Positions 28,454 to 36,259 of a stretch of 64,000 nt of DNA are shown piece after piece (positions within the stretch are counted from its first letter, which is position 1; every line of letters starts with the position of its first letter). The stretch is from Beijerinckiaceae bacterium. GTDB taxonomy: Bacteria; Pseudomonadota; Alphaproteobacteria; Rhizobiales; Beijerinckiaceae. The notes below the pieces were generated by a model. That model was not told the DNA's origin, did no database searches, and saw only the letters and a program-made list of their open reading frames with translations. The translations under genes and the position numbers were made by a program. The stretch is taken from NCBI GenBank assembly GCA_004298435.1, contig SCSF01000133.1, positions 29,291 through 93,290 on the forward strand, given 5' to 3'.

Positions 28454-28696
28454 ATGCGCGTCACGGTCAAGAAATGGGGCAACAGTGCCTCCGTCCGTAT
28501 CCCGTCCCCCATTATGGAAGCGGCGCACGTCCGGTTGGATCAGCAGGTGGACGTGCGAGAGGAACGAGGCCGTATCGTCATCGAGCCGGTGCGCGTGCCA
28601 GCCTTCGATCTTGCAAGCCTGGTGGCCGGAATTACGGATGAGAACCGCCACGGTGAAATCGACTTCGGCGGCCCCGTCGGCAGAGAGGTTCTCTAG
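28454..28696 (+). CDS. mazE: MazE-type antitoxin (AbrB fold)
   Basis: 80 residues: 'MRVTVKKWGNSASVRIPSPI' is the canonical MazE swapped-hairpin DNA-binding start; the C-terminal 'LASLVAGITDENRHGEIDFG' is the toxin-binding tail. GGAGGT lies upstream. Its TAG stop shares a base with the GTG start of mazF, so the two are translationally coupled. The module is bracketed by repeat halves, suggesting it moved here as a unit. Confidence 0.94.
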   Translation: MRVTVKKWGNSASVRIPSPIMEAAHVRLDQQVDVREERGRIVIEPVRVPAFDLASLVAGITDENRHGEIDFGGPVGREVL

Positions 28697-29028
28697 TGGC
28701 GGCCGTCTATGTGCCGGATACCGGCGACATAGTTTGGATCAACTTCGACCCCCAAGCGGGCCATGAGCAAGCCAAACACCGGCCCGCCGTGGTCCTCAGC
28801 CCCGCCAGCTACAATGATCGGGCCGGGCTGCTTCTCTGCTGTCCCACCACCACGAAGATCAAAGGCTACCCCTTCGAGGTCGAGCTGTCCGGCCATCCCG
28901 CCAGCGTGGCCTTGGCCGATCAGGTCAAGAGCTTCGATTGGCGGGCACGCAAGGCGCAAAAGAAGGGAAAAATAACTGCTGGCGAACTTGCGGAAATTCG
29001 CGCCAAGGTACATGCACTCATTGGGTAG
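28696..29028 (+). CDS. mazF: MazF/PemK-type endoribonuclease toxin
   Basis: 110 residues with 'PDTGDIVWINFDPQAGHEQA' followed by 'KHRPAVVLSP', 'LLLCCPTTTKIKGYPFEV' and 'ALADQVKSFDWRARKA', the whole MazF core including the RNA-binding Gly-His-Glu loop and the TTK segment. It cleaves single-stranded RNA at short motifs when MazE is lost. Start is GTG 28696 overlapping the mazE stop. Appears full length and intact. Confidence 0.94.
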   Translation: MAAVYVPDTGDIVWINFDPQAGHEQAKHRPAVVLSPASYNDRAGLLLCCPTTTKIKGYPFEVELSGHPASVALADQVKSFDWRARKAQKKGKITAGELAEIRAKVHALIG

Positions 29029-29063: not shown

Positions 29064-29140
29064 GGTTTGCGTGAAGAAAACGCGTCAAAACAAATAAGTA
29101 GAGCCCCGGTTCTGATTCCGTCAGAACCGAAACGGCTCTA
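29064..29140 (+). repeat. right half of the split repeat plus B hairpin
   Basis: GGTTTGCGTGAAGAAAACGCGTCAAAACAAATAAG completes module A, and TAGAGCC-CCGGTTCTGATTCCGTCAGAACCGAAAC-GGCTCTA is module B. The last three bases (CTA on plus) supply the TAG stop codon of the anti-sigma gene on the minus strand. Confidence 0.8.
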
Positions 29141-29974
29141 ACGCTGAGGATCCGCCAGAAGGGCGTGGATCTGCCGCGCCAGCGTGGTAAGCCGTTCGCT
29201 GTGCGAAGGCGCGGCGAGTGCGTAGAGGCTCTGCCCCTGGCGCCAGTAAACCGCGTTGGCCGACACCATTTCCAGACCCCGGAACGCGGGATCATCAGCG
29301 GGTTTCGCTGCGGCAATGCAGAGGACGATCGGCATTCCGGATGGATCGTTAAAATCGAGGCAGTTGACGGGGCCTTCGGCGTTGCCGCCCGCTTCGCCGC
29401 GCAACAGTTCCAGCCCGTGACGTTTCAGGCTCGGCAGAATGACGAGCGCCGGTTCGACCGCTCCGGCGTTCCAGCTCGCCGGCTGCTGCCGCATGGCGTG
29501 CTTTGGATGTCTGTGATGGAGGGCCGCCGTCGCGAGGAGCGCCACGGCTGAGCCATGGTTCGAAGATGCGTCAGAAAACGCATCGACGGCAAAGGCGCGA
29601 TAGCGATTCATCGACAGATTGGCGGCGATCGTGACGGTGATCCCGGCAACAAACGCAGCCGCAGCGAATGCCAGACCGCGCCGCCGCCGGCGTCGCGGGA
29701 GAAGGTCGCGCGTTCCGCCCTCATGTGACGGCGGCAGGCTGACGAGCCGCGGCGCGCAGGCCAGCGAGAGACTTGCCGGCACCTGCTCGATTCCGACGTG
29801 AGAAAATGCCGCCTTCAACAGCATGTTCTGCTGCCGCCAGGCTTCGATGCGCGCGGCGTCAGCCGGCGTATTGGCCAGATAGGCCAGCACAGCCTCGCGG
29901 CGATCGTCGTCGATTTCGCCATCGACGAAGCTATGCAGATCATCTTCGGCGATGGGGAAGGGGGTAGAACTCAT
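29138..29974 (-). CDS. membrane-anchored anti-sigma factor
   Basis: 278 residues. N-terminal anti-sigma domain 'IAEDDLHSFVDGEIDDDRRE' continuing through 'ARIEAWRQQNMLLKAAF', without a zinc-binding HxxxCxxC motif. A basic RRRRRR stretch precedes one transmembrane helix (GLAFAAAAFVAGITVTIAAN), leaving a periplasmic C-terminal domain of about 150 residues that would sense envelope signals. The sigma gene ends 7 bp before its start. The stop codon falls in the adjacent repeat. Confidence 0.85.
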   Translation of the reverse strand: MSSTPFPIAEDDLHSFVDGEIDDDRREAVLAYLANTPADAARIEAWRQQNMLLKAAFSHVGIEQVPASLSLACAPRLVSLPPSHEGGTRDLLPRRRRRRGLAFAAAAFVAGITVTIAANLSMNRYRAFAVDAFSDASSNHGSAVALLATAALHHRHPKHAMRQQPASWNAGAVEPALVILPSLKRHGLELLRGEAGGNAEGPVNCLDFNDPSGMPIVLCIAAAKPADDPAFRGLEMVSANAVYWRQGQSLYALAAPSHSERLTTLARQIHALLADPQR

Positions 29975-29981
29975 GGCGGCA

Positions 29982-30539
29982 CTATTTCACGAGCCGCAGA
30001 TGCGTCGCGCGGCGCAGGGGCGCTTGCGGTGACGTTTCCGATAGCGCTTCGGCAAGGCGGCCTCGCGCCCGTCCCAGACGCGCAATCAATCCGCTACGGG
30101 AAATATGCAGAATCCGCGCGGCTTGCGCATAATTGAAACCTTCGAGTGCAACAAGCAGCAACGCCTCGCGCTCCTCGAGACGCAGGCTCGAAAGAGCGGC
30201 GCATAGTCCGCGCGGCAAAGCATTGGCGTGCAGCGCGTTGGAGTGTCCCGCCCGCGCCAGTGAGTCATCGCTATGAAGAGAGCCGCCGCTCAGCGCGCCA
30301 TTGCCGCCGGCCGCCTGGAACTGGTGGCGGCTGTCGCGGTGCAGTTGCGTCAGATGCGCATAGACCTGGATGGCCAGATCGGGCCGATGTTCCGGTGAGC
30401 CGGATTCGAGAACCCGCATGAATGCCGCATGCACGAGTTCATCCGCCGCGTCGTTCGGCGCGGGCGAAGCCTGCATAAGGGCACGGGCATAACGACGCAA
30501 TCGCGGCGTCATAACGCTCAGTTCGTCCCTGACACTCAC
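29982..30539 (-). CDS. ECF-type RNA polymerase sigma factor
   Basis: 185 residues from GTG 30539 (M-SVRDELSVMTPRLRRYARA), preceded by GAGGAGGG at good spacing. Region 2 (RLRRYARALMQASPAPNDAADELVHAAFMRVLE, here shown in part as 'DAADELVHAAFMRVLE') and region 4 with HTH ('LRLEEREALLLVALEGFNYA' and 'QAARILHISRSGLIARLGRA') are visible. It forms an operon with the anti-sigma factor. No PhyR or NepR partner is near, so it is not the general-stress EcfG type by context. The track's upstream extension to 30614 is unsupported. Confidence 0.88.
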   Translation of the reverse strand: MSVRDELSVMTPRLRRYARALMQASPAPNDAADELVHAAFMRVLESGSPEHRPDLAIQVYAHLTQLHRDSRHQFQAAGGNGALSGGSLHSDDSLARAGHSNALHANALPRGLCAALSSLRLEEREALLLVALEGFNYAQAARILHISRSGLIARLGRARGRLAEALSETSPQAPLRRATHLRLVK

Positions 30540-31090
30540 CTTAGCCCTCCTCGGAGTGCTTCCCGAAAAGCTTAAAGGTCTTTTCGAGGCGGCGCGCGCG
30601 TTCCCCCACAGCAATTTTTGTATCTTTGACGGCGATCGAATTGATCAGGTTCAAAGAGCTTGTCCCAAGGCGTCCCTTCGCCAACCTGCGGCAGATAGCG
30701 CTTGACCCTATGCTGCCGCCCTTTTCTTAAATATTAGAGCGCAGTTGCTGCCTTGCCTATGGCTAGTTTGCAAATCTTCGCGCGAATTTCGCGGCTCCGG
30801 TTTCGTCCCGTTGCTGGCGGACCCGGCTGCGGCCGGCGGAATTTCCTCATGCCGGCCCTTTCCTTTGAACTTGCGCTCTGGTTAAAGGGCTCAGGTTTCG
30901 GTCGAAAGCGCCACTGTTCTCCTTGGCGGGCGGGAGCAGGGCTCCTGGACCGGAAGCGACAGCCCGGAGCCGCGACAGGCTCCACGAAACAAGTCTTGAC
31001 CGAGGGCTTGGCCAATGTGCCAAATCCGGGTTAAGGCAGCCCCTGCGCGGCGGCAGTCATGGGTCGCCCCTCTCTTGAGCCGGATCGAGA
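30540..31090. other. divergent intergenic region, sigma factor / fabI
   Basis: About 550 bp between the divergent ECF sigma gene and fabI. The ORF 30753..31034 is Arg/Gly/Pro-rich without recognisable features and I reject it. The region must hold both promoters; I could not pick out convincing -35/-10 or ECF-type elements. Confidence 0.6.
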
Positions 31091-32188: not shown

Positions 32189-35100
32189 ATGCCGAATAGC
32201 CGATCGCTTCTCCAGATGAATTCCCCGCTTCGCGCCCACACGCCAAACCTCGCTCCGGTGCGGCCGGCCCGAGTCCTGCGCGGCCCTGTCCGCCCCGATT
32301 TGTGCCGCGACGAATTGCTGTGCGAGATTTTCTCCGCAGCCGTCCAGGCCCAACCCGATGCCGTCGCTCTGATCAGCGGCGGCAGCCAACTGACCTATGC
32401 GGAACTCGACCGGCGCGCCGAAGCCATTGCGCGTGGACTGGTCCGGCAGGGGATCGGCCCGGGACAGGTCGTCGGCCTCTGGCTGCCGCGCGGCTGTGAA
32501 TTGCTGATCGGGCAGATCGCGATTGCCAAGACAGGCGCGGCCTGGCTGCCGTTCGACGCCGACACCCCGATCGACCGCATCGCCACATGCCTCGATGACG
32601 CGTCTGCCACCGCGCTCCTGAGTTCCGGGCCGCGCGCCGAGATAGCGCGCGCCAAGCCGGTTTCCGCCGTCTTCACCGCCGCCGATCTCGTCGATGATGC
32701 CGATCAGACGACCGTCAATGCGCGTGCATTGGGAGCGACGCCGGATCATCCAGCCTATCTGATCTATACGTCCGGCTCGACCGGCGCGCCGAAAGGCATC
32801 GTGATCAGCGGCCGCAACATCTGCCATTTCCTACGGGCCGCCAATGAAGTCTACGGCCTGAAAAACACGGACGTCGTCTTCCAGGGCGCTTCCGTCGCCT
32901 TCGATCTGTCGATGGAAGAAATCTGGCTGCCTTATCTGGTCGGCGCCACACTGTTCGTCGCGAGCCCGGAAATTCTCGGGGAGGCGGAACGTCTTCCGGA
33001 TGTTCTGGAGGCGAACGGCGTCACTGTGCTCGACACCGTGCCGACGCTGCTCTCCTTATTGCCGCGCGACGTGGCAAGCTTGCGGCTCATCATCCTTGGC
33101 GGCGAGGCCTGCCCGCAGGCGGTCGCCAATGCCTGGTGCCGTCCGGGCCGCAGAATTTTCAATTCCTATGGGCCGACGGAAGCGACGGTCGTCGCGACCA
33201 TCGCGGAGGTTCGCGTCGGCGCTGCCGTGACGATCGGAACGCCAATCCCGAATTACAGTTGCTACGTCGTGGATGAGGGGCTGGGTCTTCTCGGCGTTGG
33301 CGAGGAGGGGGAACTCCTGATCGGCGGCCCGGGCGTTGCGCAAGGCTACCTCGGCAGGCCGAAGCTGACTGGCGAAAAATTCATCGCCAATCCCTTCGCG
33401 GCCACCACTGGCGATCCGCTTCTTTATCGCTCGGGCGATGCCGTGGCGATCGATCAGCACGGCAATCTGTCGTTCCGCGGCCGCATCGACGATCAGGTGA
33501 AGATCCGTGGTTTTCGCGTCGAACTTGGGGAAATCGAGGCGAAGCTGACGGAATGCGCCAGCGTCGAACAGGCCACCGTGGTTTTGCGCCAGAACGACGG
33601 GCTCGACGAACTCGTGGCCTTCATTGTTCCAGCGCGGGACGCCAAAATAGATGCGAGGCTTTTGCGCACCGAACTCAGGGCGCAGTTGCCGCCCTATATG
33701 GTGCCGGTCCGTTTCGAGACGCTCGCGGCCTTGCCGCGGCTTATCTCCGGCAAACTCGACCGCAACAGCCTGAAGAAACTGCAACTCGTTCCGCTCGCCT
33801 CCACCGAGGCGCAGGAGGAGCCGCGCAACGAAACCGAGGAGTTGCTTCTCGCCGCCGCGAAGCGCGTGCTGCCGCCGCAGCCGATCCCTCTCGACGCGGA
33901 TTTCTTCACGGATCTCGGCGGCCATTCGCTGATTGCCGCGCGCTTCATTTCCGTCGTGCGGGAGACTCCGCGCCTCGCCGGAATCACCTTGCAGGATGTC
34001 TATGCTGCGCGCTCCCTGCGCGCCATGGCCACGCTTCTGAATGACAAAGCGCCTCCGGATGACGGCGCCGATCTTTCCTTCGAGCCGCCGCCGTTGCGCC
34101 GGCGTTTTCTCTGCGGCCTCGCACAATTTGCGGCCATGCCGTTCATTCTATCGTTGATCGCGATGCAATGGCTCGGCGTATTTATGAGCTACATGCTGTT
34201 CACGGACGCAGATGCAACGCTGTTCCAGGAAACGGTGACGCTGATTGCGGTCTATATCGCGATCGAGATCGGCATCGTCGCGATCGTGATCGGCGCCAAA
34301 TGGCTGCTGCTCCCGCGCACGAAGCCAGGTCGCTATCCGCTATGGGGCGTCTATTACTATCGCTGGTGGCTGACCGAGCGACTGCTGAGCCTGATCCCTG
34401 TCAGGAACTTCCAGGGGACGGCGCTGATGCGCTTCTACCTGCGTGCGATCGGGGCGAAGATCGGTAAGGATGTGCTCATCGCCGATCTCGCCTGCGGAGC
34501 CTATGATCTTGTGTCGATTGGCGACCGCACCTGCATTGGCGCGAACGCAACCCTGGCTAATGCGCGGGTCGAGGGCAACGAGCTGATCATCGGCGCGATC
34601 GACATTGGCGCGGACGTGCAGATCGGCACCTCCTGTGTGATCGAAGAAGATTGCGTGATCGGCGACGGTGCGGAATTGCGCGATTTGACGGCGCTCCCTG
34701 CGGGCGGCCGTATCGGCTCTTACGAAATATGGGATGGCACGCCTGCCGCCAAAAGCGGAACTGTTGATCCGGAGACGCTCACCTGCTTTGCCACGGCGGG
34801 ACGGTTGCGCCGCACGGTAATGACCGCTTTGCAGGGCCTACTGCTTCTGGCGTTGCCGCCGCTGAGCATGTTGCCGGTGTTCGCCGGTTTCTGGGTCTTC
34901 AATCGCGTCGATGATCTCATTGGCGTCGCGGATATAGACCGGCTGCTTTATCGTCTGTCGATTCCCGTGATGGCGTGGCCAGCGGCCTTCGTGATGGTGG
35001 TCGCCACGATCGGATTCACCATCGCCTTTCGCTGGATTATCCTGCCGCGCGTGAGCGAAGGCGCCTTCTCGGTGCATTCCTGGTTCTATCTGCGCAAATG

Positions 35101-36259
35101 GGCGGTTGCGCTCTCGACGGAGGCGACGCTCGACACGCTCTCCTCGCTTTATGCAACGATCTACATGCGCATCTGGTATCGCCTGATGGGCGCGAAGATC
35201 GGCAAGGGCACCGAGATTTCGACGAACTTCGCCGGCCGTTACGATCTCGTCGAATTGGGCGAGAAATGTTTCATCGCCGATGAGGTGGTCCTTGGCGACG
35301 AGGAGATCCGCCGCGGCTACATGATCCTGAAACGCGTAAAGACCGCGTCGCGCGTCTTTATCGGCAACAGCGCGGTTGTGCCGGCGGGGGCTGAAATTCC
35401 GGCCAACGCGCTGATCGGCATCAAGTCCAAGCCGCCAGCGAATGAGCTTATAAGCCGTGGCGACACCTGGTTCGGTTCGCCGCCGATCAAACTGCCGGTG
35501 CGCCAGACGTTCGATGTCGGCGGCGCTGCCTGGACCTATGAACCCCCGTGGTGGAAAAAGCTCGGCCGCGCCTGTTTCGAGGCGGTGACGATCTCGCTTC
35601 CCGTCATGCTGTTCATCACTTTCGGCACCTGGGCTGTCGACTGGTTCGCTGATGCGCTGCTCGGCGGCATCTGGGGCGAAGTCGCCTGGCGCTTCGTCGC
35701 TGTGGCGGTGATGATCTCGGTTGCGCTCTGCGCTGTCGTCGTGGCGTTGAAATGGATCACCATGGGCCGCTACGAGCCTGTCGTGAAGCCGATGTGGTCG
35801 TGGTGGGCGATGCGCACCGAGGCGGTCGCGGTGATCTATGCCGGGCTTGGCGGGCGCATGCTGCTCGAACATCTGCGCGGCACGCCTTTCCTGCCGTGGA
35901 TCTGGCGGCTTCTCGGCGTCAAAGTCGGGCGCGGCGTGTTCGTCGACATGACCGACATTACCGAATTCGATTGCGTCAGCATCGGCGACTTCTGCGCGCT
36001 CAACGCCAATTCGGCCTTGCAGACGCATCTTTACGAAGACAGGGTGATGAAAGTCGGCCGTGTGAAGGTGGGCAAGGGCGTGACGGTCGGCGCTGGCTCG
36101 ACCGTGCTGTATGATACGAATGTTGCGGATTATGCCCGCCTCGGGCCGCTCACCGTCATTATGAAGGGCGAGGAGATTCCAGGGCATTCGGAATGGGTCG
36201 GTTCGCCGGCGCAGCCGAAAGCGGTTGCTGTGGTTGCGGAAGCGAGGGCCGCGGCGTAG
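32189..36259 (+). CDS. Pls/PosA-type membrane-bound non-ribosomal peptide synthetase
   Basis: 1356 residues. An adenylation domain (about 35-545) has '[19 protein letters not shown]' (A3), 'FDLSMEEIW' (A4), '[17 protein letters not shown]' (A5), 'YRSGDAV', '[20 protein letters not shown]' (A8) and 'SGKLDRNS' (A10). A carrier domain follows (about 555-625; '[15 protein letters not shown]', phosphopantetheine Ser). The rest alternates about six transmembrane helices with three left-handed beta-helix (hexapeptide-type) domains, each introduced by 'GAKIGK'- or 'VKVGRG'-like motifs. There is no condensation or thioesterase domain. This is the layout of epsilon-poly-L-lysine synthetase and TIGR02353-type proteins. 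ATG 32189 lacks a clear RBS; ATG 32216 is the alternative. aroC follows after 11 bp. Confidence 0.92.

Follow-up and report, generated by a model that had tools for sequence, protein, structure and literature searches.

The window, a stretch of 64,000 nucleotides from a Beijerinckiaceae bacterium, carries at 32189-36259 (+) an intact, full-length open reading frame of 1356 aa. The encoded non-ribosomal peptide synthetase (NRPS) is an intact member of the known Pls/PosA family and not a new kind of system. We consider it probable that this enzyme is a membrane-bound single-module synthetase, which makes a short cationic isopeptide homopolymer from one basic amino acid. The first-pass annotation had proposed an isopeptide-linked homopolymer; the family placement supports this product class and makes the proposal a reasonable one. 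Added here are the placement of the NRPS clade as a supported sister clade of PosA, an often-fixed locus with natural empty sites, a near-core distribution in the bacterial family of the window and a motif that is confined to the third of three beta-helices.

Domain architecture and relatives of the synthetase

TIGR02353 ('Pls/PosA family non-ribosomal peptide synthetase', NCBIfam) matched residues 645-1341 and scored 602 bits, above its cut-off of 423; TIGR01733 (amino-acid adenylation) matched the N-terminal part with 401 bits. The adenylation domain (residues 49-522; 32333-33754, +) comprises the Pfam domains AMP-binding at residues 49-388 (E 1e-79) and AMP-binding_C at residues 448-522, and it was aligned residue by residue to PosA 8G95. 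It is followed by a carrier domain (PF00550, residues 553-617; 33845-34039, +) with the phosphopantetheine site Ser580 (33926-33928, +), which is invariant in 111 of 111 sequences. Hexapep repeats were detected in the C-terminal half by Pfam, while the Pfam and NCBIfam scans of the 1356 residues revealed neither a condensation nor a thioesterase domain, as had been noted before.

A confident AlphaFold2 model of residues 540-1356 (pLDDT 86.5, pTM 0.87; alignment with 55 orthologues) places long hydrophobic helices in three pairs, with a beta-helical domain after each pair. The first pair (residues 636-671 and 678-707; 34094-34309, +) precedes beta-helix C1 (approximately residues 767-858; 34487-34762, +), the second (residues 872-911 and 918-951; 34802-35041, +) precedes C2 (approximately residues 1021-1102; 35249-35494, +) and the third (residues 1121-1158 and 1162-1191; 35549-35761, +) precedes C3 (approximately residues 1263-1337; 35975-36199, +). 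A hydropathy scan agrees with the six modelled transmembrane helices. The domain content given in the first-pass annotation (adenylation domain, carrier, about six transmembrane helices and three beta-helices in one chain) is therefore borne out by Pfam, NCBIfam, AlphaFold2 and hydropathy alike. Its wording 'beta-helix domains in the membrane' needs correction in one respect: there are three beta-helices, but according to the model they are soluble domains stacked on the membrane helices. The same arrangement was described for a model of PosA, in which three left-handed beta-helices pack as one domain over the membrane helices (PMC10522769).

Eighty orthologues with 58-69% identity were fetched. 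In comparison with four relatives both halves of the NRPS gave dN/dS values of 0.14-0.29 (0.14-0.15 against the copy from the same genus, 0.22-0.29 against more distant relatives). Because of this conservation and this purifying selection, chance is excluded as an explanation.

With the adenylation core as query, PosA 8G95 was the closest solved adenylation domain (424 bits), and Pls 7WEW reached 210 bits. A match of 529 bits to linear gramicidin synthetase does not indicate a close relative, since this score adds two adenylation domains; with the core alone PosA leads. Identity over the full length amounts to 43% for PosA (L142), 32% for Streptomyces Pls (L143) and 62% for an Azospirillum homologue, and an orthologue from the same genus is 81% identical over the fetched part. 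The NRPS belongs, in a tree of 39 rows, to an alphaproteobacterial clade with 18 rows; its sister clade contains PosA and has 6 rows. Support is 100 for each clade and for the node that unites them. The Pls/TIGR02353-type layout that had been recognized from the sequence is thus upheld by profile score, solved structures and phylogeny.

PosA, the delta-poly-L-ornithine synthetase of Acinetobacter baumannii characterised in 2023 (PMC10522769), resembles the NRPS in architecture, in two essential pocket acids common to both and in being encoded by a lone gene without partner genes. It differs in its adenylation code (DMEHNGTVSK versus DLEDIGSVVK), in its clade and in lacking the location between fabI and aroC. 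In general the products of proteobacterial members are indeed mostly unknown, as stated in the first-pass annotation, but PosA is an exception. The epsilon-poly-L-lysine synthetase Pls of Streptomyces (7WEW) shares the layout of adenylation domain, carrier, six transmembrane helices and C1/C2/C3 without condensation or thioesterase domain, and the Q-x-H motif in C3 is common to both, whereas overall identity is only about 32% and the code is DAESIGTVVK. The Streptomyces pls gene that we examined is followed by an M1 metallopeptidase gene, which is absent beside the NRPS gene. A plasmid of Mycobacterium avium (L166) also carries a gene of the Pls type; its code is likewise DAESIGTVVK, and a cysteine-synthase-like gene precedes it.

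Adenylation pocket and candidate monomers

The alignment to PosA 8G95 yielded the pocket code DLEDIGSVVK, formed by D239, L240, E243, D282, I302, G304, S326, V334, V335 and K522. The code was read alongside calibrators in the same alignment, namely PosA (DMEHNGTVSK, ornithine), Streptomyces Pls (DAESIGTVVK, lysine) and two homologues that have a diaminobutyrate transaminase gene beside them (DFECLSAVTK and DFECLSVVTK). The pattern DLED(I/L/V)G(S/T)VVK occurs in 109 of 111 sequences, comprising the NRPS and its relatives. The remaining two are homologues of 31% identity from the same bacterial family with the code DFEALG(T/S)VTK, one in each of two genomes (L004, L019), so that at least two classes of code exist within the bacterial family. 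Phe at the second code position is reported for poly-Dap/poly-Dab synthetases (PMC10522769). The neighbourhoods of the two transaminase-flanked homologues (L146, with an additional aspartate kinase gene, and L148) suggest poly-diaminobutyrate clusters.

The pocket of the NRPS has neither the ornithine code of PosA (5 of 10 positions identical) nor the lysine code of Pls (7 of 10 identical; positions 2 and 4 differ, and Ser replaces Thr at position 7). D217 and E221 of PosA correspond to D239 and E243, and both acids are kept; exchange of either one for Ala inactivated PosA (PMC10522769). D282 provides an extra acid where PosA has H260. A second acid at the fourth position, as D282, is also found in the published codes DMEDVGSVDK (ornithine, also lysine), DGEDHGTVTK (ornithine) and DGEDHGTVVK (lysine), and the arginine consensus likewise carries an acid pair, Glu239 and Asp278 (PMC12283262). 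Because of the acid pair shared with these ornithine, lysine and arginine codes the pocket fits a basic amino acid. Since the chemistry of the family needs a free omega-amine, ornithine and lysine are the likeliest monomers; L-ornithine is the most likely, with L-lysine next.

Several observations speak against ornithine or blur the choice. Thr304 and Ser313 of PosA, which touch the delta-amine of ornithine, are changed to Ser326 and Val335; the exchange S313A in PosA lowers kcat/KM 183-fold (PMC10522769). The Glu and Asp pair would fit an arginine code as well, although arginine lacks the free omega-amine that isopeptide formation requires, and no neighbouring gene backs any substrate. It is conceivable, with a chance somewhat below even, that the enzyme is of the Pls type and uses lysine, diaminobutyrate, arginine or a modified basic amino acid instead of ornithine, so that the polymer might be an undescribed one. 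As this reading departs from the main one in substrate only, our confidences in the two overlap. It gains from the greater similarity of the code to Pls than to PosA and from the arginine consensus. Furthermore, 'D L E D I G T V T/V/I K' appears in Patel and Gulick among the codes without assigned substrate; they call it unique and give archaea, rhizobia and Methylobacterium as its sources (PMC10522769). This group has the same code class as the NRPS, and the two very likely belong to one clade; the accessible text of that paper gives the code and does not mention a conserved locus, clade-wide counts or the C3 motif. Against a monomer other than ornithine, Leu at the position related to chain length is nearer to Met (PosA, ornithine) than to Ala (Pls, lysine). 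Diaminobutyrate in particular is disfavoured: no diaminobutyrate transaminase above the cut-off was found in this genome, and the homologues flanked by such a gene have another code, DFECLS(A/V)VTK. Literature searches with the exact code of the NRPS returned no match, and we found no report of a product for any enzyme of its clade.

The C-terminal half and a proposed mechanism

In a 29-row alignment of diverse family members the invariant C-terminal residues are kept in the NRPS, with one conservative deviation (I754 for Leu). The earlier annotation would have been contradicted if all three C-terminal domains had lost active-site residues; this is not the case. All 144 complete family sequences carry the motif Q-[TAGS]-H in C3; two further sequences that lack it end at contig edges and were left out of this count. 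In the NRPS the motif reads Q1278-T-H1280-LYEDR (Q1278 at 36020-36022, H1280 at 36026-36028, both +) and marks C3 as the candidate site of polymerisation. In the members aligned, C1 and C2 have no such histidine at the corresponding positions, while C2 contains an invariant Asp1031 and a near-invariant Asn1060. The assumption of three equivalent C-terminal domains that each join residues does not agree with this pattern. Since Q-x-H is invariant in the third beta-helix only, one catalytic centre, located in C3, appears more likely than three. PMC9205021 cites a study from 2013 in which the three Pls domains were mutated.

Neither sequence nor fold searches detected a solved homologue of the whole C-terminal half (TM-score by query length ≤0.16). 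The fold search retrieved single beta-helices only, mainly of hexapeptide acetyltransferases and gamma-carbonic anhydrases. A profile of C3 matched the same families and paired Q-T-H with the Q-H-H found in QdtC, an N-acetyltransferase. In hexapeptide acyltransferases a histidine of the beta-helix often serves as general base. The NRPS shares the left-handed beta-helix fold with these enzymes (galactoside and maltose O-acetyltransferase, QdtC) but differs from them by three fused copies in a membrane protein, which would be fed by a carrier domain and not by soluble acyl-CoA.

In the mechanism we propose, the adenylation domain would activate one basic alpha-amino acid and load it onto the phosphopantetheine at Ser580; priming of this site would fall to a phosphopantetheinyl transferase whose gene lies elsewhere in the genome. 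The role of a condensation domain would be taken by the C-terminal half with its platform of six helices and three beta-helices. The carrier-bound thioester would be attacked by an omega-amine, that of a free monomer or that of the growing chain, giving a short isopeptide polymer. C3 would hold the single catalytic centre with His1280 as general base, and C1 and C2 may be structural or may bind the chain.

The likeness of the beta-helices to hexapeptide acyltransferases by fold and profile is also consistent with a different outcome, namely that no free polymer is formed and that the platform acts as an N-acyltransferase, which attaches a basic amino acid, or a few of them, to a lipid, a cell-wall component or a similar acceptor. 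Such a role would fit the position of the gene, which lies in a housekeeping block and not in a secondary-metabolite cluster, and the finding that neither exporter nor hydrolase genes recur around it. Nevertheless we regard it as improbable: PosA and the Pls proteins of Streptomyces and Corynebacterium, which have the same architecture, make free homopolymers (PMC10522769, PMC8117764), and the NRPS shares the family-invariant residues with these characterised homologues. Far less credible still is a decaying or inactive relic. Several genomes of the same genus lack the NRPS and have aroC directly after fabI, but the full-length reading frame, the intact invariant residues and the dN/dS values of 0.14-0.29 in both halves argue against decay. 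The synthesis of a short homopolymer from a basic amino acid is the preferred reading.

Locus, distribution and implications

The gene is located between fabI (enoyl-ACP reductase, PF13561; 31091-31939, +) and aroC (chorismate synthase, PF01264; 36271-37389, +), the likely ATG of which lies 11 bp past the NRPS stop codon. Among the 80 relatives fetched, fabI belongs to the same short locus in 46 and aroC in 33, and many of these loci have the co-directional order fabI, histidine-phosphatase gene, NRPS, aroC. Azospirillum members adjoin fumarate hydratase instead. In three genomes of the same genus without the NRPS gene, aroC follows fabI after a gap of 16-97 bp. Most simply read, the position between fabI and aroC is ancestral and the gene was lost in some lineages; a gain is the alternative. 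We see this often-fixed locus with its natural empty sites as the main point of interest.

The first-pass annotation had noted that no dedicated hydrolase, exporter or regulator is adjacent. This was confirmed, and no such gene recurs over the 80 related loci; within 3.5 kb there is no recurrent exporter, hydrolase or phosphopantetheinyl transferase. An adjacent phosphopantetheinyl transferase gene was found for homologues from Rhizobium (same clade) and Sphingomonas. The present genome encodes an Sfp-like transferase (L150) and AcpS (L151), both away from the NRPS locus. It also encodes a second short NRPS (L152, C87:6791-7990, -) of 954 aa, apparently composed of adenylation domain, carrier and thioesterase-like C-terminus. 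Further upstream in the window, a MazE/MazF-like pair occupies 28454-29028 (+), where an antitoxin-like reading frame of 80 aa (28454-28696) overlaps a toxin of the PemK/MazF family (28696-29028; PF02452, E 9e-27). At 29138-30614 (-) lies a sigma factor-like gene (PF08281), followed downstream by an anti-sigma-like reading frame; in 15 of the 80 related loci a gene of the former kind, and in 6 one of the latter kind, is again found upstream of fabI.

TIGR02353 matches were obtained in 138 of 199 genomes of the bacterial family of the window. Among its good-quality genomes 124 of 171, from 34 of 43 genera, have a match, that is about 70%, usually in a single copy; these counts include any TIGR02353 member, and at least two such members are of the DFEALG class. 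Of 398 genomes drawn evenly from the phylum, 30 matched, 13 of them in the window's own family.

The product is probably a constitutive polycation of the envelope or with a protective role. A more specific view, which we put forward as a speculation with rather low confidence, is that of a near-core alphaproteobacterial enzyme that supplies a cationic isopeptide for normal envelope physiology and not a sporadic antibiotic, with a monomer new to the family and a single catalytic histidine in C3. The restriction of Gln-x-His to C3 turns the way in which an NRPS without condensation domain joins residues into a one-mutation question. The genomes of the same genus with an empty fabI-aroC site offer a ready natural comparison. 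Retention across the bacterial family (about 70%), the usually single copy, the often shared housekeeping locus and purifying selection together argue for a general role of the cationic isopeptide.
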